64,000 nt of DNA from a virus, in the IMG/VR virus record IMGVR_UViG_3300007609_000017, positions 1 through 64,000 of that record. One strand, written 5' to 3'. The notes beneath the pieces are model-generated. The model ran no database searches. It was given only the letters and a program-made list of their open reading frames with translations, and had not been told where the DNA came from. The translations under genes were made by a program, and so were the position numbers. Below are positions 1 through 45,611 of this stretch, piece after piece; position 1 is the first letter of the stretch; each line of letters begins with the position of its first letter.

Positions 1-659
1 ATGTATTGCCAGTGCTGTTCGTACATGAGAGGCTCGCCACCGACCCAGTATATTTCTTCAACTCTGTGTTGTTCAACAGCCTCGGCAAATTCTTCTTCTA
101 CCACTGTTTGCTGAAACTCTTTGATTTTTTTGTTTACTTCAGGTTTGAGCCAGTTGTTCTGCGGATTGTCCCAATTGATTCTTTGGTTTTTTTTACTTTC
201 TGTTTCCCAGGCACTGCTGAGCATATCGCCACATTGTCTACATTTAAAATTGCACAAATTACTGAACCTATAATCCCAGCTTATTGGCTTCATTGTGGTA
301 CAGCCAGTTTCGTCTGTACTAGTCCAAACTTCATCGTATTTGTGCTTAAACAAGTGCCAAAAGTAATCTCTGTAAACATCTGTGTTGAGTAATTTTTTAT
401 CACAAACTACACACTCGTTTGGTGTTTCGCCTGACATCATCTGTCTGCGAACGCTTTTAATCCGTTCGCTGTTCCAGTATTCCTCTAGAGTTTGTGGTGT
501 GTATTTGCCGGTGCCGCTTGATGTATCAATATATTGCTCAAAATTTTGAGCAGGTTCTCGGCTTGCACAACACAGGCGTCTTTCGGTTTGTGGCGAAAGA
601 TATGTATGTGTCCAAGGTGCCATACATAGACTGTTTGGTTTATATTCGGGTTTTTTCAT
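1..659 (-). CDS. Radical SAM protein with N-terminal twitch-like domain (partial, runs off left edge)
   Basis: The reading frame starts at ATG 659 and is still open at base 1, so about 219 N-terminal residues are present. The N-terminal part has the pattern LCMAPW, then a CC pair, then CVVC, a cysteine-rich twitch/SPASM-like auxiliary-cluster region. It is followed by the radical SAM signature CNFKCRQC (CX3CX2C, three cysteines for the 4Fe-4S cluster that cleaves S-adenosylmethionine) and the GGEP SAM-binding motif. Its start overlaps the stop of the upstream radical SAM gene (ATGA), so it belongs to the same operon. The closest relative in the window is the 2900-4222 protein: both have the (C)MxPW start and the FSNLCNF(K/R)CR core. 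The substrate is unknown. Confidence 0.88.
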   Translation of the reverse strand, partial: MKKPEYKPNSLCMAPWTHTYLSPQTERRLCCASREPAQNFEQYIDTSSGTGKYTPQTLEEYWNSERIKSVRRQMMSGETPNECVVCDKKLLNTDVYRDYFWHLFKHKYDEVWTSTDETGCTTMKPISWDYRFSNLCNFKCRQCGDMLSSAWETESKKNQRINWDNPQNNWLKPEVNKKIKEFQQTVVEEEFAEAVEQHRVEEIYWVGGEPLMYEQHWQY

Positions 660-1696
660 CTGCCTAGGTGTATCTTATGTTTGTACTGTTCTACAATCTC
701 CATATACTGATTGTGCTCAGGATGATTAATTAGATGAACAGAATTTTTTTTGTAGAAATCACCGTCTCCGGTTGCCCAGTCTTCCAGTTCCGCATAGTGT
801 GTTCTAAACGCATAACGATCTGCTAATTCTATAAAATTTGGTATATCTCTGTAATTGGCTTTTTGTATTACAAAATTAAGTTGTGCTCTTATACCATGGT
901 TGTCCTGCAAAAACTTCAAATAATCTAAATTTTCCACCAATGTTGTCCACTTGCCCGGGCGTCTTACATCTTCATACACCTCCTGGCTACCTGCGTCCAT
1001 GCTGATCATTACTACCTGTGTGCAGTTGATTAAACTGGGATTTTGTTGCATGCGTTTTTTAAGCAATAACCCATTGGTTAAGAAACTGAATTTTTGATTT
1101 TGTTTGAGTTTGCAAGTAGTCAAAAAGTTTTGATAAATTTCGCTAGCAAATGGATCGCCGTTTCCGCTGGTAAAAATCTGTAAATTTCCATTGTGGTTTT
1201 TTACAATGTTGTGAAAGTGATTGATCCATTTGATTTTTTCTTCTAATTTATTGCCATTTTTTACAAAAATCATTTCATCTCTACAACTAGGACACTGTAA
1301 ATTACAACTTTCGTCTATGTTTAGAAATACTACACGCTGGGATTTATTTTGCTGAAAATGTTTACGTGTTGCATTCTTATTATGTAGTATTCCGCACCGA
1401 TTAACGTCGCAATAGCGAAAACTTCCGTCTATAATTGTGCTTTGTAAATAATGAGCTATATAATTTTGCCAGATGTCTTCTAGGCAATTAAAGTCTGTTA
1501 TATGACCAACACTCACAGGCAATTTACCGTCGCATGTACAAACAAAAACATCACCATTGCGATCTATACTACACCCAGTAAAAGGATCGGCACAAAATAT
1601 AGATAAATCTTTTGCTATACCAAAATTCTCAATTTGATCTTTTACAAATTGTTTTTCATGAGGAATGTGTTTTTTTATGTCAATGCTGTTAAACAT
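656..1696 (-). CDS. Radical SAM protein with N-terminal SPASM-like cysteine cluster
   Basis: This is a 346-residue protein. The radical SAM signature CNLQCPSC (CX3CX2C) lies near residue 135. Before it, at about residues 33-105, is a SPASM-like stretch with GCSIDRNGDVFVCTC and later CDVNRC, the type of region that normally follows a radical SAM core and binds auxiliary Fe-S clusters. The order looks inverted relative to standard SPASM enzymes. The usual GGEP motif is replaced by SGNGDPF. It overlaps the upstream radical SAM gene by 22 bp and the downstream one by 4 bp. It is the most divergent of the six tandem paralogues. The reaction and substrate cannot be inferred. Confidence 0.87.
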   Translation of the reverse strand: MFNSIDIKKHIPHEKQFVKDQIENFGIAKDLSIFCADPFTGCSIDRNGDVFVCTCDGKLPVSVGHITDFNCLEDIWQNYIAHYLQSTIIDGSFRYCDVNRCGILHNKNATRKHFQQNKSQRVVFLNIDESCNLQCPSCRDEMIFVKNGNKLEEKIKWINHFHNIVKNHNGNLQIFTSGNGDPFASEIYQNFLTTCKLKQNQKFSFLTNGLLLKKRMQQNPSLINCTQVVMISMDAGSQEVYEDVRRPGKWTTLVENLDYLKFLQDNHGIRAQLNFVIQKANYRDIPNFIELADRYAFRTHYAELEDWATGDGDFYKKNSVHLINHPEHNQYMEIVEQYKHKIHLGR

Positions 1697-2910
1697 TTGT
1701 GTAGCTCTGGGTACAATTCAGCAAAACTTTCGCCGCGATATTTGTCTGCTCGATTTATCATATCAAGTATTTTCTCGGCACTTACTAGTTGATTGTCCTG
1801 CTGTATAAAGCGGACTAGGCTATTAACTTCATCTATGTACTTTTTAGGAAATGTCTGTTTTCTTTGCAAACTTTCGACAAAAATATCTTTGAGGGGTTGT
1901 GGTACATAACTTACGTTAAAATGATTTGGATCATGCAACATATTCCAGTGCACCGCATCAAACTGCTTTTTTTCTGCCCATTCTAACAACTCGCTTATAT
2001 CCAAACAGTTGAACATGTTTATAGTAAAACACAACTGGCTACTGAGATTGGCATTGTACTGTTTGTGTAGATTAAATTGATCAATGGTTTGATTACTTTC
2101 TTTCCAATTTGCACCATGTCTTTCATATTCGAACTTGGCGCCGATATTATCAACACTGAATGCAACTTCTACTTCTTTGAAGTGCGGCCACAAATCCGTG
2201 AGTGCATGTTCGGGCATTTGTGTTGAGTTGGTGTTGTAATGAATGGTTATATTTTTGCTGACACCTGTGTCTACTGCCAACTTGAGAAGATCAAAATGCT
2301 CTTTGATTAAAAATGGCTCACCGCCTGTGAACTCGAAATATCTCACAGTTGGAAGCATTGCTGTTAAATCTTCCCAAAAATCTGCGCTTTCTCTGGGCCA
2401 GTTTCCTGCTTTTAGCATAGTGTAAGCAAAGGTATCTTCTTTGACTGCACCTTTACTAACATCATGTTTGATTTCTTCGCTTGCCCAGTTACTGCTACTC
2501 CAAGATCCGCAAATTCTGCATTTGAGATTGCAAATATTTCCTAACTTTAGATCTAAGAACCATAGCTGATTACTTTCTATACTGTCAAAGTTCATTTCCT
2601 CGACTTCGTGTTTGAATTTAACCAGTGTGTTTATTCGCTTGCTGGTTCTTCCGCTATCTTCTTCGGACCAACAACGATTGCAAGTAGCCAGACGCTGATC
2701 TTCCAAAAAAGACCGGCGCATGTTCTGCATATAGTTGCTGTTCATTGCTTGACTCAGCGTGTGCTCTTTAAGATTATATTTTTCGCCGTTGTCTTCTATT
2801 TCGTCAATGGCCAAACAACACGGACGTAACGTGCCCATTGGTGTAGTTTCGACACTCACCCATGGTAAAATACAGAAATTGGTATTGTCTATAATATCTT
2901 TATACTTCAT
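1675..2910 (-). CDS. Twitch-domain radical SAM protein
   Basis: This is a 411-residue protein. An N-terminal cysteine region (FCILPW near residue 12, RPCCLA near 30, CNRCW near 78) resembles the twitch domain found at the N terminus of a family of phage and marine bacterial radical SAM proteins. The core carries CNLKCRIC (CX3CX2C) near residue 130 and TGGEPF near 195. The C-terminal third is probably the rest of the partial TIM barrel and has no further recognised motif. It overlaps both neighbours (22 bp and 11 bp), implying translational coupling. Family membership is clear from the motifs; the substrate is unknown. Confidence 0.9.
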   Translation of the reverse strand: MKYKDIIDNTNFCILPWVSVETTPMGTLRPCCLAIDEIEDNGEKYNLKEHTLSQAMNSNYMQNMRRSFLEDQRLATCNRCWSEEDSGRTSKRINTLVKFKHEVEEMNFDSIESNQLWFLDLKLGNICNLKCRICGSWSSSNWASEEIKHDVSKGAVKEDTFAYTMLKAGNWPRESADFWEDLTAMLPTVRYFEFTGGEPFLIKEHFDLLKLAVDTGVSKNITIHYNTNSTQMPEHALTDLWPHFKEVEVAFSVDNIGAKFEYERHGANWKESNQTIDQFNLHKQYNANLSSQLCFTINMFNCLDISELLEWAEKKQFDAVHWNMLHDPNHFNVSYVPQPLKDIFVESLQRKQTFPKKYIDEVNSLVRFIQQDNQLVSAEKILDMINRADKYRGESFAELYPELHKCLTALT

Positions 2911-4222
2911 GCAAGATTTCTTCTAACTCAGGAAAAGAATCAAAGAAACTTTCATCTCTGAATTTGTCTAGGTCGGCCATTACTTGCTTGAATTTTGTCA
3001 ATAAATGACTGTTGTCTTCTGCCATCATAAAATCAATTGCACCTTTAAAACCGTTGGTTGCTCTAGTAAGATGATCATCAGGCTCAATGAGTGCAATGTG
3101 TTCCAGATACTTTTCTTTCACACGTTCTTTCATATGTTGCGGCAACATATCAATACGATAGTATTCAGGTCCTTGAAGAATGTTTACATTTAGATCAATG
3201 GCCCGTAAAAATCCTTTGTCCATCCAATCTCGATGAAAGTCCGGTAGATGAAAACTATTCATAATGCTCAATGTAGGAGAAATATAAAAGTCTACATCCG
3301 GGCACACTTTTAGCATGCGTTCGCGATTGCGTTCTGTTTGTGCCCAATCTTGCCCTTTACGAATATACTCGCCCCTTGTGCCCATTCCGTCTAGACTAGC
3401 GCCTACACTTACACTGTCAAACAACTTCCAATACTCGATTACATCCATGTCTTTGTAGGACATTTCAGAGAAGTTGGTATTGTAGATCAACTTTACATCA
3501 AATCTTTCGTTATCAACTAACCACTTGAGTATGCGATAGTGTTCCTCCATAATAAGAGGTTCGCCGCCAGCAAAATACACCTGTTCAACATATGGCATAT
3601 GTTCTTCGGCTTGTTCCCATATGTCCATTTTGTGGCGACCGGCATACTGTATAACTGGGGTGTCTTTGGGCAACCAACCATTGCGTATTTTTTCTTTGGC
3701 CCAGTTGCTGGAGAAGATATCACCGCAACTTCTACAACGGAAATTACATAGATTACTGAATCTGATGTCCCAATAAATCAGTTTAAATTCTGGATGTGTG
3801 CCATCTTCTAATGTAGTATCTACTTTGTCTATGTGATGTCCAAAATGCTTGTTCGAGCTGTTGCGCATGCTAAAGAAGCCATTCTTTTCTTGCTCGTAGC
3901 ACTTGACGCACTCTTTGCTGGGCTCGTCATTGAGCATGTTGCGACGCATTGTTCTATAAGCATCGCCATTGTATATTTCTTCTAAGGAATTTTCTCTCAT
4001 GTTTCCAATAGGATGATCCATGTGTCCTAAACAGCAAGGATATGCTTCGCCAGTTGGAAATCCATGTATATGGATCCATGGGATCATACAAAAATGATCG
4101 CTTTTCATCAACCGATCTTGCTGATCCTGTCTCAGTGTTTCGGGCTCTACAAACACCGGTCTACGACTGTTGTAGTCGTAGGTTTTGTAATAATCTTTGA
4201 TTTTGTCAACTTTTGTTGTCAT
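2900..4222 (-). CDS. Twitch-domain radical SAM protein
   Basis: This protein has about 440 residues. I prefer the ATG at 4222 because it forms an ATGA overlap with the stop of the upstream gene, as at other junctions of this operon; an in-frame ATG at 4237 would add five residues. The N-terminal cysteine region reads FCMIPW, YPCCLG, CVKC. The radical SAM motif is CNFRCRSC and the SAM-binding motif is AGGEPL. The stretch between CPCC and CVKC (GNMRENSLEEIYNGDAYRTMR) resembles the SPASM/twitch linker in which a helix packs against the auxiliary cluster. It is closest to the partial gene at the left edge. The role in the operon is unknown. Confidence 0.9.
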   Translation of the reverse strand: MTTKVDKIKDYYKTYDYNSRRPVFVEPETLRQDQQDRLMKSDHFCMIPWIHIHGFPTGEAYPCCLGHMDHPIGNMRENSLEEIYNGDAYRTMRRNMLNDEPSKECVKCYEQEKNGFFSMRNSSNKHFGHHIDKVDTTLEDGTHPEFKLIYWDIRFSNLCNFRCRSCGDIFSSNWAKEKIRNGWLPKDTPVIQYAGRHKMDIWEQAEEHMPYVEQVYFAGGEPLIMEEHYRILKWLVDNERFDVKLIYNTNFSEMSYKDMDVIEYWKLFDSVSVGASLDGMGTRGEYIRKGQDWAQTERNRERMLKVCPDVDFYISPTLSIMNSFHLPDFHRDWMDKGFLRAIDLNVNILQGPEYYRIDMLPQHMKERVKEKYLEHIALIEPDDHLTRATNGFKGAIDFMMAEDNSHLLTKFKQVMADLDKFRDESFFDSFPELEEILHEV

Positions 4223-5544
4223 AAGGATTGGTACCATTTTGATAAATTAGGAAATGCACGATGGAAATCGTGGCCCCTGCGTGTGTCGTACTGCGAATAA
4301 AACTTTTTGAAATCATTTAACAATTTAGGCATTTCAAACGTTTCGCTGTGCGGTTTGTCAACACTTTCTAAATATTCAATTAATCTAATTGTTTGATTTT
4401 CTTCCATGGCATGCAATTTATGATTGTTTGCATCAAGCCACTTTGCTATATTGTCTCTATACTTGCGTTTTTGTTCTTGTGGCAAAATAAGAGGACTTTG
4501 AAAACTTGGGAATCTAAGTATATTTAGTGTAAAAGTTGGAAAATCCTTACCATATCTATCTTTAAGTTCCAGCATCATACTAAGGAATTCTGGCAAACTA
4601 TCAAGACAAAGTGCATTCACTGTACACATCATGTGGAATCCTTTGAGTACTCCACTGTCGGATACTTTGTGTGCATTGGCTAGCCACCTGTCCCATTCTA
4701 GTCCATCTCTGATGTATTCTGCTTGATACCCTACTGCTTCGCAACTGGTGTATAAATGCAAATTGTTTATGTCTTTGCCTAGATCAATAAATCGATCAAT
4801 CAACGAGTCTTTGCCGCATAGATTACTATTCACAGCAAGATCAACATTCAATGTTGGGTCCCAACTTTCCATCAATCGCCATAATTCGCCGGCCATCATT
4901 GGCTCGCCACCGGTGATTCGCAATTCTTGTAGTGAGTTTTTAAGATCACTTTCCCACCATTTGAAAAATGCTTCCACATAAGGATTGTATTCGTCTTGCT
5001 TGTAGAGCTGTGCGCTTTCGTGTTCGTGCGTAAAGTGATTGCGTCCATCACTTACTAGTCCCTCGTATCCGCCGTTGGTTTTTAGATCTTTTACCCAGCT
5101 TGTGCTAAACGCAGGATTGCAATAACTGCACCCAAGATTGCAAGTTCTATCAAATGCAATTTCCAGTGTTTGTAGATCAAAGTCTTGGGCGTGGTCAGAA
5201 TCTTTAGCAATAATCAAGTCGTTATTACTGTAAATTTTGCTTTTATAAACCCGGTCACTAACGTACTCAGAGCCCATATCTTCAATTTTCCAACAATACT
5301 CACAACCTTGCGGACGTTCGCCGTTTTGCATTTGACGTCTTTGCTCTTTTTTTTGCGGAGTATTATGAATAGCTTTGGGATTTTGTTCTGCATGATGTGC
5401 TTGAATAAAATGAGGCAAAGGATGATGACAGCTTGTTGTCATTCCACTGCCTAACCATATGGTAGCATTGTACCACTTTGCTCCACAAAAACTAGCACTC
5501 TTGGGGTCTAATATATTCTTTTTATATTCTAAATCAGGATTCAT
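4219..5544 (-). CDS. Twitch-domain radical SAM protein (FCxAKW subgroup)
   Basis: This is a 441-residue protein. The N-terminal region has FCGAKW, a SCHHP motif where the other subgroup has PCC, and CEYCW. The core has CNLGCSYC (CX3CX2C) and TGGEPM, preceded by a NPYVEAFFKWW helix that is shared almost exactly with the next protein in the operon. The 441- and 466-residue proteins therefore form one paralogous pair, distinct from the MxPW/CC group. Its start codon overlaps the stop of the upstream gene by one base (TAATG). It carries all three core cysteines and so is expected to be catalytically competent. The substrate is unknown. Confidence 0.9.
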   Translation of the reverse strand: MNPDLEYKKNILDPKSASFCGAKWYNATIWLGSGMTTSCHHPLPHFIQAHHAEQNPKAIHNTPQKKEQRRQMQNGERPQGCEYCWKIEDMGSEYVSDRVYKSKIYSNNDLIIAKDSDHAQDFDLQTLEIAFDRTCNLGCSYCNPAFSTSWVKDLKTNGGYEGLVSDGRNHFTHEHESAQLYKQDEYNPYVEAFFKWWESDLKNSLQELRITGGEPMMAGELWRLMESWDPTLNVDLAVNSNLCGKDSLIDRFIDLGKDINNLHLYTSCEAVGYQAEYIRDGLEWDRWLANAHKVSDSGVLKGFHMMCTVNALCLDSLPEFLSMMLELKDRYGKDFPTFTLNILRFPSFQSPLILPQEQKRKYRDNIAKWLDANNHKLHAMEENQTIRLIEYLESVDKPHSETFEMPKLLNDFKKFYSQYDTRRGHDFHRAFPNLSKWYQSL

Positions 5545-6944
5545 TATATGCCTCTTTGATTACTTAGCATTTTACATTCGTTCCACCAATTGATCATTTG
5601 TGGAAATGTTGATTCAAAGTCTAGACCTCTTCTGCGATCATATTCAGAAAAAAACCTATAAAAATCTATTTTGCGCCTAACTATTTCTTCGTCTGATACT
5701 TGTTGCTGACGCATCCAAGCAACATCACGTTCAAACTTTTTAATTTCAAAATCTTTGAAATATTGAAAATGATCTTCGTTGCCTTGCTCCACTCTATCTT
5801 TGATTCCGTTTGTAATTTGCTCCAACTTCCATGCATAAGGTTCTGGCATGTGCTGTAGACTTTGCCACACAGGTTTGTACAACAACGGAATATCAAACCA
5901 AACTCTTTGATATGTTTTTGAATATTTTCCTCTAAGTTCGTATATCCATTCCAACAACTGGTCTAGGCTAAACAAACTTAGATTGTTCATAGTAACAATG
6001 AATGTTACACTACTGCGGTAAGGGACTTCCTCTAAAAACCTTTCTACATTGTGTTTCATACGTTCAAAGTTAAGACCGTCGCGCATATACTCTGCTTGTT
6101 TGCCCCATCCATCTATGCTAACAAACTGCATAAAATGCTCAACTTTTATTTCATCTATATCGCATAACTTTTTAACATAGGACATATATTTTTCAAACAA
6201 CACATTGTCGACACTGAAATTACTAGTGACGTTGAGATGTAGATCCGGTTTGGGATTATCTAATACCCAATCAAACACGCGATAGGTATTTTTATCCATT
6301 AACGGTTCGCCGCCTGTCATGCGAAAATGCTTGAGATCTTTGTAGAGATCTGGCCACCATTTCCAAAATGCTTCAACATATGGATTGTTTTCTCTCACAG
6401 GTATATTTCTGCGATCGCCGGAAAAATGCTCCGGAGCATTGTGCGGTGTTAAGGTAGGATATTCTCCAAACTTGTCGATTTCTTGTTGCCAAGCTGTGCT
6501 GAATTGCGGACTACAATAACTGCATGCAAGATTGCATCCGTGACTAAAATTGACTTCTACATAGCTTGGGTTTATATCGGAATCCCATGCACTGCTAGCA
6601 ATCACGTCATAGTCCTGCATTGCCCACGGCTCACCTGACCGATAGTGTCTGTCACTCATGTTGCCGGTGGATTCAATATTCCAACAATAACTGCATTCTT
6701 CGCACTGTACTCCTTCCAACATTTCTTTTCTTCTAAGCTTTTTGTGGCTGGTATTGTGTAGTGCACTAGGATTGCTTGCTATTTCTTCCAAAGGAATTTT
6801 ATGCAAAGGCGGATGATAGCAACTATTGTTGAATCCTGTGGGCAGATGCAAACTAACTTGTTTCCATTTTGCTAAACAAAAACTATCACTTACCTGTGCT
6901 AGCTTTTGTTTTGCTACTTGTGCATCATCTAAATAGTCGCTCAT
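5544..6944 (-). CDS. Twitch-domain radical SAM protein (FCxAKW subgroup)
   Basis: This is a 466-residue protein, the first radical SAM gene of the operon in the direction of transcription. The N terminus has FCLAKW, SCYHPPLHKIP and CSYCW; the core has CNLACSYC and TGGEPL with the conserved NPYVEAFWKWW helix before it. It is a clear paralogue of the 4219-5544 protein, sharing LHNT and KKxxRRxEM-type motifs between the N-terminal cysteines. The upstream glycosyltransferase-like gene ends inside its start codon (ATGA). This junction links the glycosyltransferase part of the operon to the radical SAM part and argues for co-translation. Confidence 0.9.
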   Translation of the reverse strand: MSDYLDDAQVAKQKLAQVSDSFCLAKWKQVSLHLPTGFNNSCYHPPLHKIPLEEIASNPSALHNTSHKKLRRKEMLEGVQCEECSYCWNIESTGNMSDRHYRSGEPWAMQDYDVIASSAWDSDINPSYVEVNFSHGCNLACSYCSPQFSTAWQQEIDKFGEYPTLTPHNAPEHFSGDRRNIPVRENNPYVEAFWKWWPDLYKDLKHFRMTGGEPLMDKNTYRVFDWVLDNPKPDLHLNVTSNFSVDNVLFEKYMSYVKKLCDIDEIKVEHFMQFVSIDGWGKQAEYMRDGLNFERMKHNVERFLEEVPYRSSVTFIVTMNNLSLFSLDQLLEWIYELRGKYSKTYQRVWFDIPLLYKPVWQSLQHMPEPYAWKLEQITNGIKDRVEQGNEDHFQYFKDFEIKKFERDVAWMRQQQVSDEEIVRRKIDFYRFFSEYDRRRGLDFESTFPQMINWWNECKMLSNQRGI

Positions 6945-7861
6945 CTTTCTGTTATAAAATCTTTTTCTGTGGTCATCACTGACTTTTGTACATGTGTCTG
7001 CCTGAAAACTTCTTTGAAAAATTTACTTTGCTGTGCAGAATACTCACTGATGCCCATATCTAACTGTTTGTTAAGAGCACCCATATATTCTTTTGAAACT
7101 TTATCACATTCTAACTCACTAACTTCTTGATTCCACATTTTTTCTAAACTAGGAAACCATTGTACTTGTGTGTGATCCCAATCTTCTAACATTGTTTTCA
7201 CAGTTCCCATTCTTGCACCAAGAATAGCCCAATCTCCGTTGTCAACGTCATGGCCGATAGTTTGCCAAATTTTTAAATTGTTTAAATTTTGCTTGTGTAC
7301 GCTGTCCTTGAATTCTTCTACAGATGGCTTTCTTCCCCTATCAAGACACATTTTTACACCTTCTCTGAATCCTGCTCTCCATGCTTGAAAAGGTGTGCCA
7401 TTAGGATAGGTGGTGCTGTAGACATTGTGCATTGCCCAATATCTATCATCAAAACAAAACTCTACATTGGTTTCGTCGTCTCCCTCGCTGTGTTCGTGTG
7501 TTTTCATGTTGAGCACAAAGTCTTTGGTCCAGCAACTCATGCCTCCATTGCCGTACATAAGTCCGTTGATTTCATTTACAGCTCTCCAGCGGAATACACA
7601 TTCTTTGTTAACGCTATCTAATTTTAGTTGTTGATTAAAAAAGCTTTCGTAAGGCAAGTTATCACCGTCGATTAAAACAAATCTATCAGTATGGCTAGCT
7701 TCAGCAGCTGCTTTATGCGCAGCATCACTACCCTCCACACCATCTACCCGTTTGGCCCATGGTACCATATTTTGTATGTGTGCCCAGAACTCTTCTTTTT
7801 GAGGTTCGTCGTAACTCAAATAAATGCAATCTAGGTCAGCAACATCTACTATTTCTGTCAT
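6941..7861 (-). CDS. Glycosyltransferase-like protein (GT-A type fold, DGD motif)
   Basis: The protein has about 306 residues. I chose ATG 7861, which overlaps the preceding stop as ATGA and has GGAG eight bases upstream; an in-frame GTG at 7870 would add three residues. The N-terminal part has an IYLSYDEP strand, a WAKRVDGVEG segment and then FVLIDGDNLP. This order resembles nucleotide-sugar-binding GT-A glycosyltransferases in which a DxD-like motif holds the metal and sugar diphosphate. Similar proteins are common in marine T4-like phages, where the acceptor is usually unknown. It sits between a small unknown gene and the radical SAM array. Glycosyltransferase activity is inferred from motif order only. 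Confidence 0.68.
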   Translation of the reverse strand: MTEIVDVADLDCIYLSYDEPQKEEFWAHIQNMVPWAKRVDGVEGSDAAHKAAAEASHTDRFVLIDGDNLPYESFFNQQLKLDSVNKECVFRWRAVNEINGLMYGNGGMSCWTKDFVLNMKTHEHSEGDDETNVEFCFDDRYWAMHNVYSTTYPNGTPFQAWRAGFREGVKMCLDRGRKPSVEEFKDSVHKQNLNNLKIWQTIGHDVDNGDWAILGARMGTVKTMLEDWDHTQVQWFPSLEKMWNQEVSELECDKVSKEYMGALNKQLDMGISEYSAQQSKFFKEVFRQTHVQKSVMTTEKDFITER

Positions 7862-8133
7862 TTGATCCACTCCACTGGTTGTCTTGCAAAAGGATGTATA
7901 TATTTTGTTTGTTCAAACTGTTTTTCTGTGGCTTTGCCATCTTTAATCTCAACTCGATCCAATCTAAAAGTGTTGTACTGTTGTTTAGTCAATACTATGT
8001 ATTTTCCAGCAGGTTTTTCAGTGGTCATGTACAAAGGATTATTGTCATCATCGTGATACAATCTATATTCCTGCTGTATAACTTGTGTTTCAAAATTATT
8101 TTGTTCAACTGCGTGAAAAAAAGAGCTGCTCAT
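7858..8133 (-). CDS. Small protein of unknown function in radical SAM operon
   Basis: This is a 91-residue protein with no cysteine and no motif I recognise. It is hydrophilic and rich in Gln, Lys and Tyr, with no signal peptide or membrane segment. Its start lies 29 bp inside the upstream glycosyltransferase-like gene and its stop overlaps the next start, so it is most likely translated as part of the operon. Its size raises the possibility of an accessory or substrate peptide for the radical SAM enzymes, but there is no leader-like or core-like repeat to support that, so it stays unassigned. Confidence 0.7.
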   Translation of the reverse strand: MSSSFFHAVEQNNFETQVIQQEYRLYHDDDNNPLYMTTEKPAGKYIVLTKQQYNTFRLDRVEIKDGKATEKQFEQTKYIHPFARQPVEWIK

Positions 8134-8977
8134 AGTGCGATATTACCTTGTCGGTAGCAAATTCTTTTTCGTAATAGTGAAAAGGATACAGTTGACGATA
8201 TCCTCCTACTATAATACTGGCATCGTCATTTAAACTGTACGGCAAAACATCTAGCCAATTGGTACTTTCGGGCCAATTATGTATGCCTGGTTTCATGTGC
8301 GTAAAGCACGGATAGTCCGTGTGCGATAAAAAGCATTTTTCTTTTCCAATTATGTTGGCAGCTACTGCATAGGCTTCGTCGGTGGCAATTTTATTGCAAT
8401 AAGAAAGATTTCTTTTTACAATATCTGTTTTTTCGAATATGTCTTTGAGTGCAACAAAAAAGTCTGCACTTGTTTTACTGTAGCGAAAATAACTGAAACC
8501 GTTGTAGGCATTAGGCAAATTGTTTTTGTCAAATGCTGTGCGATATGTCCTACTGTGACTTATTGCATTTCTATAGTCTCTTGCAACTACACTAAAACAA
8601 ACATCTTTATGTCTCAACATGTGCCACCAATGATCCTGCGGTACTGTGAGCAGAAGATCGCTTTCTAGTTTTATTGTTTCCTTGAACGGCGTTGCCCACC
8701 AAACTTGCCATTCGTTTTGTAATTTCCAGTTGACGTTCTCTGCCATATCGTCAAATGGCAACTCTATTACATAGTCAAACACTTGTCTGTGTAAATCAGT
8801 AACTTGCTTGACTGTATGAGAATCAACCACTACTGCATAATTGTTGATTTTTTGTGTAGCTTTAATACTTAATGCCTGCAGGTATGCTAAACGCAAATAA
8901 TCAACATCGTTGCTGTTTTGTGCTATAGTTAAATAACCTTGTTGCTGACTAAATGGTACTGTTCTGCGTAAATTCAT
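8105..8977 (-). CDS. Glycosyltransferase-like protein (GT-A type)
   Basis: This is a 290-residue protein. It begins with a GYLTIAQNSNDVDYLRLAYLQALSIK segment typical of family-8-like glycosyltransferases, where the first strand is followed by a helix carrying many small residues. KLESDLLLT near residue 103 occupies the position of the metal-binding DxD motif (here ESD). A later segment, NGFSYFRYSK, resembles the acceptor-site region of such enzymes. It overlaps the upstream glycosyltransferase by 29 bp and the downstream 91-aa gene by 29 bp. It is related in architecture to the 8949-9803 protein. The donor sugar and acceptor are unknown. Confidence 0.7.
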   Translation of the reverse strand: MNLRRTVPFSQQQGYLTIAQNSNDVDYLRLAYLQALSIKATQKINNYAVVVDSHTVKQVTDLHRQVFDYVIELPFDDMAENVNWKLQNEWQVWWATPFKETIKLESDLLLTVPQDHWWHMLRHKDVCFSVVARDYRNAISHSRTYRTAFDKNNLPNAYNGFSYFRYSKTSADFFVALKDIFEKTDIVKRNLSYCNKIATDEAYAVAANIIGKEKCFLSHTDYPCFTHMKPGIHNWPESTNWLDVLPYSLNDDASIIVGGYRQLYPFHYYEKEFATDKVISHYEQLFFSRS

Positions 8978-9803
8978 ATATTTTAGACAAATCTGACTTG
9001 TTCATCACGTGTAAATCGCCACGATATAGAGTTTGTTTCTTTACCACCTTGCCTGATTTATGACTGGGGTAACTTAAAAAAATTGTTCCAAATTTGGAAA
9101 TTTTATCAACTGTATGAGACGAGTTAAGAGTAGGCAATGCATAAGGAATACTGCAAAAATTGTTAACGTGCCCTTGTAGTGTATTTAGTGCTATAGTAAA
9201 AGCAAAATCATTTCTATAAGTTGCGCTCTTAAAATTGTACAAAACGCGATAATGATTCCAATTTTCTGCTACCTGTTTCCAGAGATCAAACACTTGCTTT
9301 ACAAAACTGCTTTTTTTAAAAACAATCACAGTGGCCCAATACATTTGCAGGCTGTTAAAATTGATGTATCGATCGATTTCGAACGAATTTTTGCCACTTA
9401 CATCATAGACAGAATCAAATGCAGTGATTTCTACATTGGAATTTAATATTTGAGCTAGTTTGTCAGTGAATACAAAGTAATCTGCATCCAGCAAAACAGT
9501 AGTGTCATATGGAGACAATTCGTATGCGCTGTATCTTCCACTGTTTTTCCAGTTGACCGTTTCGACACCCGAATCCCATCTAAAAGCACGCTTGTTTGTG
9601 CTGTGATTCTCTACAACTTTTACTTGATCAAAAATTGTATTGTCGATAGGAGAGTCTGTGATTAATGTTACAGGAATATTGAGATTTTTTTTGATCAATA
9701 CAGCATTAGCAACAGCAATACTAACATAATCTAAATCACTGTTGAATGCAAATATCAATGCACCAATGTTATTGGGGTTTTCTGATTGACTTTGCTTGAT
9801 CAT
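8949..9803 (-). CDS. Glycosyltransferase-like protein (GT-A type, DAD motif)
   Basis: This is a 284-residue protein. Its N terminus has ALIFAFNSDLDYVSIAVANAVLIKK, then VTLITDSP, and a textbook VLLDADYFVF motif near residue 108; the DxD aspartates coordinate the divalent cation and nucleotide-sugar in GT-A enzymes. It resembles the next gene in order of motifs. The start is ATG 9803, which lies 35 bp inside the end of the 104-aa upstream gene. With two other glycosyltransferase-like genes in the same operon, a function in building or modifying a glycan is likely. Which glycan (virion, nucleic acid or host surface) cannot be told. Confidence 0.74.
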   Translation of the reverse strand: MIKQSQSENPNNIGALIFAFNSDLDYVSIAVANAVLIKKNLNIPVTLITDSPIDNTIFDQVKVVENHSTNKRAFRWDSGVETVNWKNSGRYSAYELSPYDTTVLLDADYFVFTDKLAQILNSNVEITAFDSVYDVSGKNSFEIDRYINFNSLQMYWATVIVFKKSSFVKQVFDLWKQVAENWNHYRVLYNFKSATYRNDFAFTIALNTLQGHVNNFCSIPYALPTLNSSHTVDKISKFGTIFLSYPSHKSGKVVKKQTLYRGDLHVMNKSDLSKIYEFTQNSTI

Positions 9804-10083
9804 ATTCTGCTAACCAATTGTTCATTACTTCTTGGTACTTAATTTTACATTTGTATATAAAGTCTTGTATATTGGTAATTTTTACTGGATTTCCGTAGCT
9901 GTCTTCTAACACAATTTCTTCTTGCTCTGCAAACATATTTGCAAACACAATCAATTCTGGTGTGATTTTGAATAATCCGCCATTAACAGCAATTGTAAGA
10001 CTTTGTTGATTTTGTTCTCTAATGTTTTTTTTAGCTTGTTGTATGTCAAAACTTTTTTCTACAGTTTCTTCGAACGTACTCAT
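9769..10083 (-). CDS. Conserved-looking phage protein of unknown function, first gene of the operon
   Basis: This is a 104-residue soluble protein with no cysteine. It contains LTIAVNGGLFKITPELIVFANMF followed by an acidic turn and VKITNIQDF, which looks like a compact alpha/beta fold. I do not recognise a family. It is the promoter-proximal gene of the minus-strand radical SAM/glycosyltransferase operon. Its ATG lies roughly 25 bases downstream of the predicted start of the TTGACA/TATACT promoter, with GAGGG as a possible ribosome-binding site. It overlaps the following glycosyltransferase by 35 bp, so it is probably co-expressed with it. Confidence 0.7.
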   Translation of the reverse strand: MSTFEETVEKSFDIQQAKKNIREQNQQSLTIAVNGGLFKITPELIVFANMFAEQEEIVLEDSYGNPVKITNIQDFIYKCKIKYQEVMNNWLAEYDQAKSIRKPQ

Positions 10084-10102
10084 AGTGACCCTCTGGATAT
10101 AA

Positions 10103-10136
10103 AAAAGCGTATATAGTATATACTATATACGCTTTT
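10103..10136 (-). terminator. 34-bp perfect palindrome with U-run, terminator of the fibre operon
   Basis: Bases 10103-10136 read the same on both strands over 34 bp with no mismatch. On the minus strand the GC-containing ends (GCG/CGC) close the hairpin and are followed by six T residues, as in a rho-independent terminator for transcripts arriving from the 309-aa fibre gene. The same bases overlap the -10 of the promoter for the downstream operon, so the element separates late and early-type transcription units. Confidence 0.65.
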
Positions 10137-10143
10137 GTGTCAA
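10115..10143 (-). promoter_or_regulatory. Sigma70-type promoter for the radical SAM/glycosyltransferase operon
   Basis: On the minus strand TTGACA (10143-10138) is followed by a 17-base spacer and TATACT (10120-10115). The -35 matches the bacterial housekeeping consensus fully and the -10 matches in five of six positions. The -10 lies at the centre of a perfect palindrome, so a repressor or hairpin could influence it. It directs transcription leftward into the 104-aa gene. Confidence 0.68.
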
Positions 10144-10167: not shown

Positions 10168-11097
10168 TTACGATGTGCTATTGGTGCTTCCCCAAGTTGG
10201 TGTGCCCCAAGTAGAGGTAAGTGCTGTTGTGCTTGGCTGACGTGCAACTGTGGTAGTTGTTGTTGTACCGTCAACTTGATCAAGAACGTTATACACACTC
10301 TTGTCGAAGCTTGTACTATCAGCCGCGTCATCACGATAGCTAATTGTTAAAGTGATAACATTGCCGTTATTGCCGTTGCCGTCGCTGTGTGCAGCGCTAA
10401 CTTTTGCTCTTACTTCAATGTAGTTTGTGGTATACGGACTCGAGTCTGCGAACTGCTTGAAAATCACAGTGTCGGTTGTGCTCAAGTCGTAGTAGCCTGT
10501 GGTTGTAGCAAGTGTACTTACTGTGCCACTGCCGCCATTTTTACTTGTAGTGCTTGCGCCCAATACTATCGTTCCTGATTGTGTAGCTAGCTGATTCCAC
10601 TCTGTGTTTTTAGCACTGCTAGTGCTGCCTGTGTGATTAAAACTAATACGAACTTCGCCGCCTGCGTTAAAGAAGTAACGTGCTTCGTTGCCGCCGGCAA
10701 AAGTAAGTGTTTGTGTGTGCGTAGTTTCTGTGAACCATGTAGCCGTGGTTGCATTTGTATCGCTTGTGTCTGTTCCTGTACCTGCACGATCCAGTCTGTT
10801 GGTGTCAACAGTGCTGATATTTGTGCTGAGTGCAGTGTATGCTTCGATCGTATCACCTGTGGTCGGATTAGTGATGCTTGTGATTGAACTATTTTGGTGT
10901 GTTGCCAAGCTTGAAATTCTGCTTAAAAGTGTAGTCCACTGTGTAGCAGTAACTGTGTTACCCGCGCTTACAGAACTAACTGTAGTTGATTGGCCATAAC
11001 CACGGTCACCTGTGCCGGTGCCCCATAGTGCATTCACACTAGCAACAAAATCGTTGTAGTGATCGTCTAGAATTATATCTCCAGATTGATATGCCAT
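10168..11097 (-). CDS. Virion fibre/appendage protein
   Basis: This is a 309-residue protein, Thr/Ser/Asn/Gly-rich throughout. The N-terminal 60 residues (GDIILDDHYNDF, WGTGTGDRGYGQ) look like an attachment domain of the kind repeated in marine T4-like appendage proteins. The rest is predicted beta-rich, with AGGEVRISFNHTGS typical of fibre domains. It follows the 487-aa fibre gene with a 28-bp gap and a GGGGAT ribosome-binding site, and precedes the strong terminator. A structural role is inferred from composition and location; the receptor is unknown. Confidence 0.7.
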   Translation of the reverse strand: MAYQSGDIILDDHYNDFVASVNALWGTGTGDRGYGQSTTVSSVSAGNTVTATQWTTLLSRISSLATHQNSSITSITNPTTGDTIEAYTALSTNISTVDTNRLDRAGTGTDTSDTNATTATWFTETTHTQTLTFAGGNEARYFFNAGGEVRISFNHTGSTSSAKNTEWNQLATQSGTIVLGASTTSKNGGSGTVSTLATTTGYYDLSTTDTVIFKQFADSSPYTTNYIEVRAKVSAAHSDGNGNNGNVITLTISYRDDAADSTSFDKSVYNVLDQVDGTTTTTTVARQPSTTALTSTWGTPTWGSTNSTS

Positions 11098-11125: not shown

Positions 11126-12589
11126 TTAGTGAATGCTAACAATAGCTTCCACCAGTTGAATGTCGACACTGTATTTATCTTCCAGTGCTCTACCAATGGT
11201 GTTAAACGCTGTTGCTTCACCTTCTTTGGCTGTTCTTGCAACGCCGTTGCCTGCACTAACCAATCGATCGCCTTTGCGACATTCACCTTCAACTTTTACT
11301 GGTACTCTTCCTTGCATTGCAACTGCTGGGTGAGTTTCATCAGTGCCTGCTCCTGCATTCATCAAGTAAGCAGCTCTGCCACTGATTACACCAAAAACAC
11401 TACTGCTAGCAGCTTCTGAGCTGGCAGTAATTTCTTCGGCTCCGCCAAGTGCTACCACTGTGCCTACATCATATGTTTGGTCTGCGGCAAATCTTTCTGC
11501 CAAGTCGGCATATTGTGCTTGTGTGGCTGTGCCATTGAATGTAGTAGCGTAAATTGTTTGAAATCTCACACTATTAGTACCAATATCTTGTGTTCCGTCG
11601 CTGGACAAAATATCACCAGTCATAGTACCGCCAGTGGTTAGTAGTGCTCCTGCACCACTTACCTGTCCATCTACATACTGCTTGGTTGCCGCACCTAGGT
11701 TGCTCACAGGATCGCCTGCTAGTAAAATTCTGCTGCTAGCGCCATCAATTGTTAACGCAGTGGTTACAACACCCCCGTCGTTGACTCGCAGCAAGATATC
11801 GCCATTTTGTGTTTGGTTTTGAATCACAACATCGTCGGTGCTTACACTCACCTTAAAATCATTGTCTGCACCTACTTGCAATCCATTGTCATTGTTGACT
11901 GCAAGTGTGCCTGTGGTTGTGTCATTTGCGTCACTGCGTAGGAAGCTTGATGCACTTACTCCGCCTAACGCATCACTGTCTGAACTTGTACCATGGAATT
12001 TGGCTGATGCTAGTGTACTATTAAGATTGTAACCTTGTTTGATGGTTGCAAATCCACTGATTGCTACCTGTGGTGTAAATTCTGCATCTTTGCTGACAAT
12101 GCCAACAATCACATCGCTAACAAAATCTTTTACAACCACGTGGTCTGTTCCAAGATTGTCAGTCACAGTATCAACTACTGCACCACTTTCTCCGGTGCCT
12201 GCTGTAAAGCTAGGTCCAATAAGAGTAAAGCTGGAGCCATTGTACACTTTGAGCTGATTGTTGCTGGTATCCCACCAAAGATCACCAGTAACATTGCTGG
12301 TAGGTGCACTAGCACTAGCTGTACTACTGCTCACTGTTTTAAAAGTAGTACCATTGTAAACCTTTAGCAGGTTACCACTGGTGTCCCACCAAATTTGTCC
12401 TGCAATAGGATTGGTTGGTTGTGTGCTGTTTGCAAAGTTTTCCAGTAGTTTAACATAGTTTTCGTTTAGAATTTCACCGTAACCACTATAGTTCTTACCT
12501 ACTAGAGTTAAATCTGTTGTTGTATCAATCGTACCGTCTGCTACTGTAGCAAGAATCGATCCGTTTGTTTTGTTAATGGTGTAAGCCAT
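11126..12589 (-). CDS. Tail fibre protein with C-terminal GxVxVKVxGxxxKGDRL-type domain
   Basis: This is a 487-residue protein. It contains two copies of an IWWDTSGNLLKVYNGTTF-type repeat near residues 65 and 105, a collagen-like or beta-rich middle, and the fibre motif DPVSNLGAATKQYVD. The last 130 residues (YADLAERFAADQTYDVGTVV to the end) form a domain with AMQGRVPVKVEG and KGDRLVSAG, reminiscent of the C-terminal IMC/Peptidase_G2-type domains of phage tail fibres. The same domain ends the 789-aa fibre protein. A perfect TATAAATA late-promoter box lies 36 bp upstream of the start. It is probably part of the host-recognition apparatus. Confidence 0.75.
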   Translation of the reverse strand: MAYTINKTNGSILATVADGTIDTTTDLTLVGKNYSGYGEILNENYVKLLENFANSTQPTNPIAGQIWWDTSGNLLKVYNGTTFKTVSSSTASASAPTSNVTGDLWWDTSNNQLKVYNGSSFTLIGPSFTAGTGESGAVVDTVTDNLGTDHVVVKDFVSDVIVGIVSKDAEFTPQVAISGFATIKQGYNLNSTLASAKFHGTSSDSDALGGVSASSFLRSDANDTTTGTLAVNNDNGLQVGADNDFKVSVSTDDVVIQNQTQNGDILLRVNDGGVVTTALTIDGASSRILLAGDPVSNLGAATKQYVDGQVSGAGALLTTGGTMTGDILSSDGTQDIGTNSVRFQTIYATTFNGTATQAQYADLAERFAADQTYDVGTVVALGGAEEITASSEAASSSVFGVISGRAAYLMNAGAGTDETHPAVAMQGRVPVKVEGECRKGDRLVSAGNGVARTAKEGEATAFNTIGRALEDKYSVDIQLVEAIVSIH

Positions 12590-15697: not shown

Positions 15698-15705
15698 TAT
15701 TTATT
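15698..15705 (-). promoter_or_regulatory. Late promoter-like box AATAAATA
   Basis: The minus-strand sequence CGAATAAATAAAA lies 24 bp before the 789-aa fibre gene and differs from TATAAATA by one base. It overlaps the 3' end of the giant gene, so it would be an internal promoter for the fibre genes. Confidence 0.45.
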
Positions 15706-18700
15706 CGTTAATTTCCACGTATCCTTCGTTGACGTATCCGGATTCTAGATATCTACCACGCTGATCGTTGATCAATATTGGCAGTATGCCACGCTTTTCG
15801 CGCAGGAATTTTGCCTGTGCAGTGTTGGCTTTTTGCATACCTCTGCCATCGGCAGCTGTGCTAGTTCCTTGATCTAGCCACGTGTTTGTATCAGTATTAG
15901 AGCCTGCAATTACATTTTCTATGCCGGCGTCGACTACTGGCATATTCACAGGATGTTCATTTGCAACTCCTGTGCCAGCTGTTCCCCTTCTGATCTGCGA
16001 AAGTATATTTCCAGTTTTTTGCCAATATGTTATTCTTTCAGCATCAACAAATATCACACCCGGACGATTTTCGGGTATGCTAGGCTCCGACAACACTGAA
16101 CCGTCTGCTACATATATTTCAGTGTCTTGGGCCAACAAAGGTTGTGTTAACTCAGTAACGCCTTGTTTGATCATTCTGTGGTATTCTACATCACCCAGCA
16201 TACTGTGGAAAATACGCCAACTTATAGCATCAACACTGGTTTCTTCAGTAAAGCTGCTAACAACAACCAAACTGTCTGCTCTAACACCAAAGCTATCGCT
16301 CACAACAACCTTGTTGCCTTGTACCACAAAATCTATGCCAGGATGCAACTTGATTCCATCTACGGTTACCCAAACATAATTGCTGTTGGTAATAGGTCTA
16401 TCCAACTGATATTCTGCGTTGCTGATAATTGTTATGGTTTCACTGTCGAAGTCTGTTACATCATACGGAGCACCACCGAATCCAATAGTGGTAGTGATTG
16501 TGCTTTCTGCAGTTCCTACAAAAACTTTTGTTTCAATGTCGTTGTTGTCGTGATTTGTGAATGTTATTGCTCGTAGATTGCCGCCTTCACTGATGTCAAT
16601 GCTGTCGCTTAACACCACAATATTTTCGCTTTCAACTCGGTACTCTGCATCAGCACTGTTGCTCACAGTTATACGACTGCCAGATGCGGGCGGAGTGTAA
16701 AAAATAACAAATCGTTGTGTGCTACCGTCGTCAAAACTGATGTCATAATCAATAAACTGTTCTTGCTTGACATCGTCTACCCAAACACCAATTTCAGTGT
16801 CGCTGATGCCAAACTGTGTGTCATTGGCGCTGGCTGGAGTATCATAAACAATAGTACTGCTGTCGCCAGTGTAGTACACACTGTTGGCTGGTCGTAGTCT
16901 ACTACCATTGTATTCCAAAATCATTTGGCTGCTTGCTGGACCAGTAAACAGCACACGATTGTCCAATTGGTAACTGAGCGTGCTTCCATCTAGTTGTATC
17001 ACTTGTTCGTGTATTTCACTGTACGGTATTGCTTGTTCAGAATTAAACACCCAAATCTTTACACGATCTCCTAGCGCAGGAGTTCTTCCAAGCACTACTG
17101 TGATGTTATCGCCGGTGTCTACTATGGTGCTGACTACACCTTCGCCTTCTATCATTGCAAAGCTAGCCAGTGCAATCTCTGGATCTACCTGTAGGCTAAA
17201 TTCATTGGTTCCGCCTGTGCCAATTTCTGTTACTTCAGCAACAGTGTTCTCGCCTGCTACTTGGAAAATATAGCAGTATGCAATGTCTCCCTCGGCTAGA
17301 GGAGTATTAAACACTATCAAGCTATTGGCATAATCAACTTCGTAGTGAGTGCCTGCATATCTAGGGCCTAGGTTTTTGGTGTACACCACCACCATATCGC
17401 CGTCCGCTATTTCAAATACTGCGGTACTGCCGTCACCTTCTAGGTATGATACTGCAATATTGATGCCATTTCCGGTGCCTCTGCTGTTGCTAGTAGGTGC
17501 TTGATATACTTTTAGATCAAGTGTGTCGAACACTCTTCCAGGCACTAATTCCTCTGGCGAATGACTGCTGTATTCATCTACAAATTCACTGCCATCGATC
17601 ACTATATCACTTGGACGAAGTCCTAAATTGCTGTCACTGAACTGACTTTGTACAAATGTATCGTATGCGTCATCACTGATCACTTCCCTGCCTTCTGGTC
17701 CAATTTGGAAGTTATCAAAAGACTCAATGTCAAACACAGGCAAATCAAATCCAGGTCCTTGATTGAACAACGGCCCTACTACATTTACTCCTGGATATTC
17801 TACGCCATATACCTGCTGTGAAAGTTCTTTGCCAAGCATACCGCTGGTTGGTGTGTAGTAGGCTGATATTCTATCGTTGGCATTTGTGAAATTTTCATCA
17901 GCATACACACTTAGATTGTCGGCTGTAAACGCAGTTCCGCTGACAAAATCACTGGTGGCAACAAATGCTTCACCGTTGTAGCCAATAATGTCACTGGTTT
18001 GATATACTGTGTTTGCGGCCCAAGTTTTAACATCACTGGTGTATCTAAATCTATCAAATTTAATTGTGGTAGATATTTTTCTAGTTTTTTGGTTTTCCAA
18101 TCTAACCGACAATCTTGCTCCAGAGCCGTTTCCACCTACCAGTGTTACAGTCGGAGTGGTAGTGTATCCGCTGCCCGGCTCTGTCACAGTAACTTTGTCA
18201 ATTCCACCGTTTCTGATTCTCGCTACAGCGGTTGCTGTAGTACCGCCTGGTAAATCTGGGTCGCTAATAACTAATTGTGGCGCCACAGTGTAATTTTCGC
18301 CAGGTGATGCTATTGCAATACTGCTGACAATATAATCATAGTTGCTGTTCCAGCTGGAATTTTGTGCTTGTTCAAATAACGCATCATCCAACGGATTGTC
18401 ACTTTCTGGTTTGCGGTAAATTTCTAAAGACTGATCATAAAAACTTGCAACATCAAAATCTGTGACATCACCCAAGTATTCTTCTTGTTTGTTGTACCTG
18501 TACAAATATTCTCTGATCTTTGTGTGATATGGTTTGGCTTCGTTTACATAATCCAACAAGAAGCTTTGATTATCAGGCTGATACACGCTGTATTGCTCTA
18601 AGCCGCGTATTTTGTGTTCTAAACTGATAAATGATGTTTTAAACAACCAATCAACATACTGCTGTTCTTTGAGAATATATTCAAACAAATCAAAAGTAAA

Positions 18701-43548: not shown

Positions 43549-44150
43549 ATATTGCAATAACAGGAACATCTAGCGGAATAGGCAAAGAATTGTCTTATTT
43601 GCTAAAACCTAACCATAATATCACCTCACTAAACAGGCAAATATTAAATCTGTCTGATTTGGATCAAGTTATTAATTTTAACTTACAATACTGTGATATT
43701 TTAATCAACTGTGCCGGCACAGACGAAGGGGGCAAGATTGATTTCTGCAATCATAAATTAAACGAAATAAAAAACATAATGCATACTAATTTAATTTCTC
43801 CTATGATGCTTACACATCACGCATTATCAAAAAATCCTAAATGTAAAATAGTAAACATTACAAGTACTAATAATAAAAGGTATTGGCCTGATGATCTAGC
43901 TTATAGTTTGACTAAGATAAGTTTGCATAATTTTTCAGAAATGATTCGTATAGAATATCCAAATACTAATATTCTTGAAGTTCAGTTAGGCCTTACTAAA
44001 ACAAATTTTAATCAAAATAGATATAAAAAACACAAAGATAGATATCAAGATATCTACAAAAATAAACACTTGCAAGCAGATTTTGTTGCACAAAAAATTT
44101 GTTCAGTGCTGTTTGATAACAGTATTAAGTTGATAGAGATTTCTCCATGA
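43545..44150 (+). CDS. Short-chain dehydrogenase/reductase
   Basis: This is a 201-residue protein. TGTSSGIG at residues 6-13 is the dinucleotide-binding glycine motif, NCAG near 56 is the structural NNAG motif, and ITST with YSLTK near 122 provides the catalytic Ser, Tyr and Lys. All signature residues are present, so it should be an active NAD(P)-dependent oxidoreductase, though shorter than typical SDRs (about 250). GC is low (27% in a sampled line). It overlaps both gp46 and the downstream radical SAM gene by 4 bp and probably acts on a metabolite also handled by that cluster. Confidence 0.85.
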   Translation: MNIAITGTSSGIGKELSYLLKPNHNITSLNRQILNLSDLDQVINFNLQYCDILINCAGTDEGGKIDFCNHKLNEIKNIMHTNLISPMMLTHHALSKNPKCKIVNITSTNNKRYWPDDLAYSLTKISLHNFSEMIRIEYPNTNILEVQLGLTKTNFNQNRYKKHKDRYQDIYKNKHLQADFVAQKICSVLFDNSIKLIEISP

Positions 44151-45244: not shown

Positions 45245-45302
45245 CATATTTCAATTTTTGATTATTAGTCAAAAATTAAATCTGAAGTTTATCTATTAGC
45301 TA

Positions 45303-45385
45303 TATAATATGCACAAACACTAGTAAATCTAAAAAACATGTTTACTATGTTTGAACTAACTTTGTTAAACTTATCACTGTATAAT
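45303..45385 (+). promoter_or_regulatory. Intergenic promoter region ahead of the histone-like gene
   Basis: The 181-bp gap 45245-45425 is the largest in this operon. It carries two TATAAT boxes (45303-45308 and 45380-45385) but no convincing -35 at the correct distance, and an AAGGAGAT ribosome-binding site just before the next gene. No terminator hairpin is seen. The gap likely starts a separate transcript. Confidence 0.4.
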
Positions 45386-45425
45386 ATAACTTAAATTAGT
45401 CCGATCATTTTTAAGGAGATCCTAA

Positions 45426-45611
45426 ATGACTATACACGAACAAATTGTAGAACAATTTGAAGCATACCTAGAAGAGAACGAAAAGTTTGAAGAAAAAGGC
45501 GTTAAAGCAGCTGCAACACGTGCTCGTAAAGCACTAGGCGAATTAGGCAAACTAGCCAAAACTCGTCGTGCTGAGATTCAAGCTAAGAAAAACGACATGG
45601 AAGGAAAGTAA
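45426..45611 (+). CDS. Hc1-like histone H1 family DNA-binding protein
   Basis: This is a 61-residue protein with a helical acidic first half and a basic second half: KGVKAAATRARKALGELGKLAKTRRAEIQAKK. This matches the histone H1-like Hc1 family (short Lys/Arg/Ala-rich helical proteins, first known from Chlamydia and seen in marine phages), which condense or bind DNA. A strong ribosome-binding site (AAGGAGAT) precedes it, suggesting high expression. GC is higher than in the flanking radical SAM genes. Its stop is directly followed by the TTG start of the next gene. Confidence 0.8.
   Translation: MTIHEQIVEQFEAYLEENEKFEEKGVKAAATRARKALGELGKLAKTRRAEIQAKKNDMEGK

Follow-up and report, generated by a model that had tools for sequence, protein, structure and literature searches.

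The window analysed here is a 64,000-nucleotide stretch of viral DNA (bases 1–64000 within the 65,894-base IMG/VR record IMGVR_UViG_3300007609_000017), and our subject is the cassette at its left end, a minus-strand run of 11 open reading frames (ORFs) at 3–10083 in which six radical S-adenosylmethionine (rSAM) genes follow three glycosyltransferase (GT) genes, next to genes for tail-fibre-type proteins. In the direction of transcription the order is o104-gtC-gtB-o91-gtA-r6-r5-r4-r3-r2-r1, with all neighbouring ORFs overlapping, by 1–35 bases. An earlier note, made from the letters of the sequence, had described six adjacent rSAM genes in an operon with overlapping junctions throughout, and our analysis bears out both statements: all six genes are intact, r1 being truncated by the contig end alone (base 3; the record has no sequence left of base 1). 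The cassette is a real, widespread and selected phage unit, built from known enzyme families in a combination that we have not found described. Its features and those directly upstream are as follows.

r1, 3–659, minus strand: N_Twi_rSAM enzyme, truncated at its 3' end where the contig stops; NF033640 score 168 bits on the truncated half
r2, 656–1696, minus strand: divergent rSAM enzyme of generic SPASM type, a variable member; TIGR04317 62 bits, NF033640 35 bits
r3, 1675–2910, minus strand: N_Twi_rSAM enzyme; NF033640 348 bits; in 57/57 long related loci
r4, 2900–4237, minus strand: N_Twi_rSAM enzyme; NF033640 413 bits; in 57/57 loci
r5, 4219–5544, minus strand: N_Twi_rSAM enzyme of the r5/r6 subgroup; NF033640 310 bits; in 57/57 loci
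r6, 5544–6944, minus strand: N_Twi_rSAM enzyme of the r5/r6 subgroup, the most constant rSAM; NF033640 317 bits
gtA, 6941–7870, minus strand: GT-A-fold glycosyltransferase-like protein with a DGDN motif and a helical C-terminal domain
o91, 7858–8133, minus strand: small protein of a fast-evolving 'YRLYY..G' family
gtB, 8105–8977, minus strand: putative GT8/glycogenin-like glycosyltransferase, by a joint gtB/gtC profile
gtC, 8949–9803, minus strand: putative GT8/glycogenin-like glycosyltransferase, a distant paralogue of gtB
o104, 9769–10083, minus strand: conserved small protein encoded by the gene that opens the cassette
Sigma70-type promoter TTGACA-17-TATACT, 10115–10143, minus strand: spacer overlaps a perfect palindrome
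fib309, 10168–11097, minus strand: tail-fibre/virion-type protein upstream of the cassette, the proposed acceptor
fib487, 11126–12589, minus strand: tail-fibre-type protein with phrog tail-fibre matches; homologues in phages PA5oct, Atu_ph07 and Phosso

By their capsid and fibre proteins, the nearest phages are Sinorhizobium phage Phosso and Agrobacterium phage Atu_ph07: the capsid protein is 70% identical to its Phosso counterpart, and the protein s222 is 56% identical to that of Phosso and 54% to that of Atu_ph07. Because the genomes of these relatives measure 469–490 kb, the record reads as a fragment, most likely of a T4-like jumbo phage.

Enzymes of the cassette

The curated cut-off of NF033640, the N_Twi_rSAM model, is a whole-protein score of 170 bits, which r3, r4, r5 and r6 exceed (310–413 bits) and which the truncated r1, whose full-length relatives run to ~430–450 amino acids (aa), approaches at 168. 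At 35 bits r2 is not a member and matches generic SPASM/rSAM models only. Along the length of the model r1 and r3–r6 share with the family its rSAM motif as well as the N-terminal cysteines of the auxiliary cluster; what sets this locus apart from the family in general is that a single fixed operon unites five distinct subfamilies with GTs. The CX3CX2C motif and at least four additional N-terminal cysteines are invariant in each of r1 and r3–r6 (53–65 relatives each); for example, C23, C42, C84 and C87 of r6 are kept in 65/65 relatives and have invariant equivalents in r1, r3, r4 and r5. The cysteines of r2 are likewise invariant (9 rows). This pattern in r1 and r3–r6 fits one catalytic iron-sulphur cluster plus a single auxiliary one, as in twitch-type enzymes. 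Together with the motif, the partial TIM barrel in the AlphaFold model of r6 (pLDDT 92) places these proteins in the radical SAM superfamily, the model having a Z of 14.2 to SkfB and of 13.5 to BlsE. An r4 profile run against solved structures gave no match. In a 123-row FastTree, with long branches flagged for some rows, r5/r6 split from r1/r3/r4 with support 98, which upholds the division into two paralogous subgroups plus one divergent member, r2.

The window holds a second rSAM group at 43545–48399 on the plus strand, beside SbcCD-like genes, consisting of a short-chain dehydrogenase, two rSAMs, a 143-aa gene and a B12-binding rSAM related to RiPP (ribosomally synthesised and post-translationally modified peptide) C-methyltransferases and to P-methyltransferases; its three rSAM genes lie at 44147–48399. 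Records of relatives hold 6–19 rSAM matches each.

That the three genes upstream of the rSAMs are GT-like, as had been proposed, is supported by two lines of evidence. The joint gtB/gtC profile leads to glycogenin in a PDB profile search (E 2e-5, ~100 residues aligned); there is no Pfam GT8 match for either, and Pfam scans of all three proteins and their relatives gave nothing useful. For gtA, the AlphaFold model (pLDDT 93.7) comprises a GT-A domain and an extra helical domain. A first structure search returned low TM-scores, and a second aligner resolved the match as a single GT-A domain, with a VIA Z of 9.2 to B4GALNT1 over residues 7–157 and Z of 8 to 9.2 to several GT-A enzymes. The residues D68, G69, D70 and N71 are invariant, DGD forming the D-x-D motif, and on the model gtA has a predicted GT-A fold. 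Among 50,697 isolate phage records gtA has no match.

Conservation and selection in viral relatives

How constant is this arrangement? An r6-seeded scan gave 567 viral matches, of which the best 80 were retained, and scans seeded with gtA and with fib309 were run to avoid selecting loci by their rSAM genes; the three sets share contigs, each being limited to the 80 most similar matches. With the r6 seed, 57/57 long loci have fib309-gtC-gtB-gtA-r6-r5-r4-r3 in this order on a single strand, and the 65 r6 rows form 59 groups at a 95% identity level and 20 groups at 75%. With the gtA seed, 65/65 long loci hold fib487, fib309, o104, gtC, gtB, gtA and at least one rSAM, with r5, r3 and r1 sometimes absent or replaced, and with the fib309 seed all 62 loci that extend far enough have o104, gtC, gtB, gtA and one or more rSAM genes downstream of the fibre gene. 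The gene o104 occurs in 53/57, 65/65 and 62/62 loci and r6 in 57/57, 62/65 and 60/62 (r6, gtA and fib309 seeds, respectively), r2 in 10 of the 57. In other words, the gtA- and fib309-seeded sets show an invariant core of fibre gene, o104 and three GTs, to which the rSAM genes add a variable layer.

Median dN/dS is 0.07–0.12 for r1, r3–r6 and the GTs, an approximate value as dS is mostly ~1.1, and the genes are under purifying selection. Decay of most copies, which the earlier note had named as a reason to abandon its proposal, is contradicted by these ratios and by the invariant catalytic cysteines. Chance as the source of the array is rejected by the synteny, the dN/dS values and the cysteine conservation.

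Between the core genes, related loci carry inserts: carbamoyltransferases, an NAD-dependent sugar epimerase, 2-oxoglutarate (2OG)-Fe oxygenases, B12-rSAMs, extra rSAMs and, assigned by eye, SGNH-type proteins and an amidinotransferase-like protein. Judged by their families, these would be glycan or tailoring functions. One candidate, the insert d336, had been read as GT10-like from a TEKTW motif, for which a PDB profile search gave no support. Ten loci have a PNP_UDP_1 gene (PF01048, nucleosidase superfamily) that resembles methylthioadenosine/S-adenosylhomocysteine nucleosidases, standing between r3 and r1 in, for example, L054 and L055. Such nucleosidases also cleave 5'-deoxyadenosine, an rSAM by-product, and the gene possibly clears the 5'-deoxyadenosine that the cassette's rSAMs produce. 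Directly downstream of r1, 41 related loci carry d356, a conserved protein of ~356 aa (e.g. L065 17802–18872) with neither a Pfam nor a PDB match; the window lacks it, as the contig breaks off within r1.

The o91 slot is filled in relatives by ORFs of 91–139 aa of the 'YRLYY..G' type. In a subset of loci (L057 8669–9049, L031 and others), ORFs of 114–127 aa with signal-peptide-like starts stand in the gtB-gtA slot. A contig titled Rhodobacteraceae (NZVE01000006.1) carries the fibre-GT-rSAM order and, for that reason, appears to be phage sequence placed in a bacterial bin.

A predicted promoter at the head of the cassette

The junction between fib309 and o104 (window 10100–10143) holds TTGACA-17-TATACT over a perfect palindrome. 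Promoter sites matching at least 10 of 12 positions are found at this junction in 32/59 relatives, against 5.5% in shuffles, and sites matching at least 11 of 12 in 20/59, against 0.34%; the other junctions are mostly at background, with 31% after gtB. In many loci (among relatives L013–L056) the spacer is palindromic and its sequence changes while both arms remain complementary, so that it may act as terminator plus promoter, or as an operator. A T4 late promoter was also considered and rejected: TATAAATA occurs 4 times in the window against 3.3 expected by chance, and is absent at the cassette start. With a predicted sigma70-type promoter of its own, the cassette does not merely extend the fibre transcription unit, and is probably a transcription unit in its own right under a host-type promoter.

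Bacterial relatives

The same enzymes have relatives outside phages. An r4-alignment scan of bacterial genomes found, on a Bacteriovoracaceae chromosome (L095), r5-r1-r3-r4-r3'-r6-r5' in a row, between rplU/rpmA/obg and lgt, and in the tree the phage r1, r3, r4, r5 and r6 each group with Bdellovibrionota genes, r1 forming a clade with two of them at support 100. Of 191 Bdellovibrionota genomes, 7 have r1, 46 have r6 and 10 have gtA; 7/7 genomes with r1 (P 3e-5) and 9/10 with gtA (P 1e-5) carry r6, in tests that ignore phylogeny. A GT2 gene lies within 10 kb of r6 in 8 of 21 loci from 12 Bdellovibrionota genomes, by a hand count from listings, against 1.5 expected (P 6e-5), and gtA lies 2–7 kb from r6 in three genomes. 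Neighbours at the r6 loci examined include GT2, GT4, a flavin amine oxidoreductase-like protein and GDSL/SGNH proteins, a gene context that favours glycan chemistry. The earlier note had held that homologues away from GTs would count against it; the L095 set does lack gtA–gtC in its operon, whereas r6 of Bdellovibrionota is enriched near GT2 and gtA co-occurs with r6. Separately, the 2.9-Mb Elusimicrobia bin-0981 has 84 N_Twi_rSAM matches, many of them TPR-fused and in tandem arrays.

Cultured phage relatives

Within the isolate phage collection, r4 and r6 match only Vibrio phages K566 and K567; in K566, four N_Twi-related rSAM genes are interspersed with genes for apparently GT8- and GT4-like proteins. 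Both s222 and fib487 are retained in Phosso and Atu_ph07, and the slot that follows holds other rSAMs, of SPASM type. Thus, rSAM operons repeatedly occupy this slot. PA5oct has a fib487 homologue without such an operon. In Phosso and Atu_ph07, among the rSAM genes after the fibre genes, the slot also encodes a virion-like protein (L231 16281–17201 and L230 18449–19339) ending CHTSCHASCHSSRSRR / CHSSCHASCHNSRSRR, with the pattern CHxSCHASCHxSRSRR. These three C-H-x-S repeats beside rSAMs are similar to His-Xaa-Ser (Hxs) RiPP systems and make a His-Xaa-Ser-like modification of a phage protein possible; unlike in those systems, the rSAMs score far below the HxsB and HxsC cut-offs, and the repeats are not in the present window.

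Elsewhere in the window, a single ORF of 4295 aa (15701–28588, minus strand) adjoins baseplate-wedge genes.

What does the cassette make?

We propose, tentatively and at slightly less than an even chance, that the soluble GTs glycosylate a tail-fibre protein, with fib309 as the likely acceptor, and that the rSAMs tailor the glycan. The linkage of fibre, GTs and rSAMs with every seed, the glycan or tailoring inserts, the GT2 genes near r6 in Bdellovibrionota and the GT8- and GT4-like neighbours of the K566 rSAMs all argue for this reading. Additionally, no membrane or lipid-carrier enzyme is seen in the cassette, and this suits a soluble, protein-linked glycan more than it suits a new polysaccharide. 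What we infer is the acceptor, the sequence of the steps and their chemistry. The glycogenin-like gtC and gtB would initiate or extend a short glycan on fib309 and gtA would extend it, after which r6, r5, r4, r3 and r1 would act successively on the glycan, or beforehand on the sugar donor, each with its own position or step in radical reactions such as epimerisation, deoxygenation or C-C bond formation. Being in nearly all loci, r6 would take the first radical step, and r5, r4, r3 and r1 later, partly optional ones; the inserted genes would add further groups. A fixed fibre-and-GT core with a changing set of rSAM and tailoring genes would then diversify the virion surface for host binding or escape.

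Several points weigh against this proposal. The viral linkage could partly reflect lineage inheritance, fib309 is only a proposed acceptor, and the L095 operon of r1, r3, r4, r5 and r6 contains neither gtA–gtC nor another GT. The promoter before the cassette is of sigma70 rather than T4-late type, which fits early host remodelling as well. The fold of r6 is about equally near to peptide maturases (SkfB, SuiB, AnSME) and to nucleoside or sugar enzymes (BlsE, DesII), and thus cannot choose between a peptide and a sugar substrate. No solved structure was found for any NF033640 enzyme and, in an incomplete literature collection, no paper giving one a function.

The main rival is a RiPP-like route, in which the rSAMs modify residues of a virion protein (fib309, or the small o104 or o91) through cross-links or epimerisation and the GTs add sugars separately. 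Most characterised twitch and SPASM rSAMs do act on peptides, fib309 ends in a conserved C-terminal PPSTT..WGTP tail, and the Phosso/Atu_ph07 slot pairs SPASM-type rSAMs, one of which weakly matches the peptide maturases PapB, DynA and HxsB, with a CHxS-tailed virion-like protein. It is mainly because the target in that branch may be a peptide tail that we hold the glycan proposal no higher. Against the peptide route, a motif scan of ORF tails found no precursor, and no Cys-rich or HxS tail, among ORFs of the window and related loci; o104 and o91 lack a conserved leader and variable core; the r6 homologues of Bdellovibrionota adjoin polysaccharide genes; and the Phosso enzymes are not N_Twi_rSAMs. 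On balance we regard it as unlikely. The earlier note had named both routes: its multi-enzyme rSAM and GT pathway at the tail-fibre locus, with duplicated enzymes, is supported, and its RiPP-like option is kept alive by Phosso and Atu_ph07 in spite of the lack of a recognisable precursor; chemistry on a sugar rather than on protein is a reading that we favour tentatively.

Somewhat less probable again is that an early-expressed cassette alters lipopolysaccharide or capsule sugars of the host, for example to exclude other phages. The host-type promoter, with near-consensus hexamers and separate from the fibre genes, would suit this role, as would the small ORFs with signal-peptide-like starts and the occurrence of r6 homologues in bacterial surface-glycan loci; in cyano jumbo phages, GT clusters have been suggested to serve surface remodelling (PMC7824862). 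Such remodelling leaves the strict coupling to fib309 unexplained, and neither a lipid-linked initiating transferase nor a flippase or polymerase is seen in the cassette. Very unlikely is a role in modifying DNA, RNA or nucleotides, or in making a diffusible small molecule, with GTs glycosylating the product: T4-like phages do glycosylate DNA, and the r6 fold is near viperin and BlsE, both acting on nucleotides, but the cassette has no DNA-modification genes, adjoins fibre rather than replication genes and is strictly linked to fib309.

Outlook

Uncultured T4-like marine phages with numerous rSAM genes, close to genes for host recognition, have been reported before: the marine virus TARA_ERS488813_N000010 has 12 (PMC5332604), and pelagimyophages carry rSAM cassettes in a host-recognition cluster (PMC7029224). 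The passages on these viruses treat rSAM counts or cassettes as auxiliary genes, and in them the fixed fibre-GT-rSAM order, the promoter and the bacterial sister sets are not described. Both rSAM and GT genes are among those enriched in Tasman Sea phage samples in an East Australian Current survey (PMC7150976). Glycans on virion proteins, as proposed here, are known from the capsid and tail tube of mycobacteriophages, work cited in PMC12619734, whose account of them, unlike the present cassette, names no rSAM enzymes. In our incomplete literature collection we found no description of a fixed fibre-GT-rSAM cassette. The fullest version of our proposal, that a phage lineage makes a fibre glycan rebuilt by a five-rSAM relay, a type of virion decoration and a carbohydrate chemistry both new to description, by an enzyme set shared with Bdellovibrionota, strikes us as rather improbable, if less so than any of the rivals above.

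On hundreds of aquatic virus contigs, five N_Twi_rSAM subfamilies, three GTs and one fibre gene recur in a fixed order, and this constancy narrows the search for a substrate to a single fibre protein or the glycan on it; related loci are also present in cultured phages. Should the glycan proposal prove true, oxygen-sensitive radical chemistry would join virion decoration, and enzymologists would gain a group of as yet unexplored radical enzymes that act on sugars or proteins.

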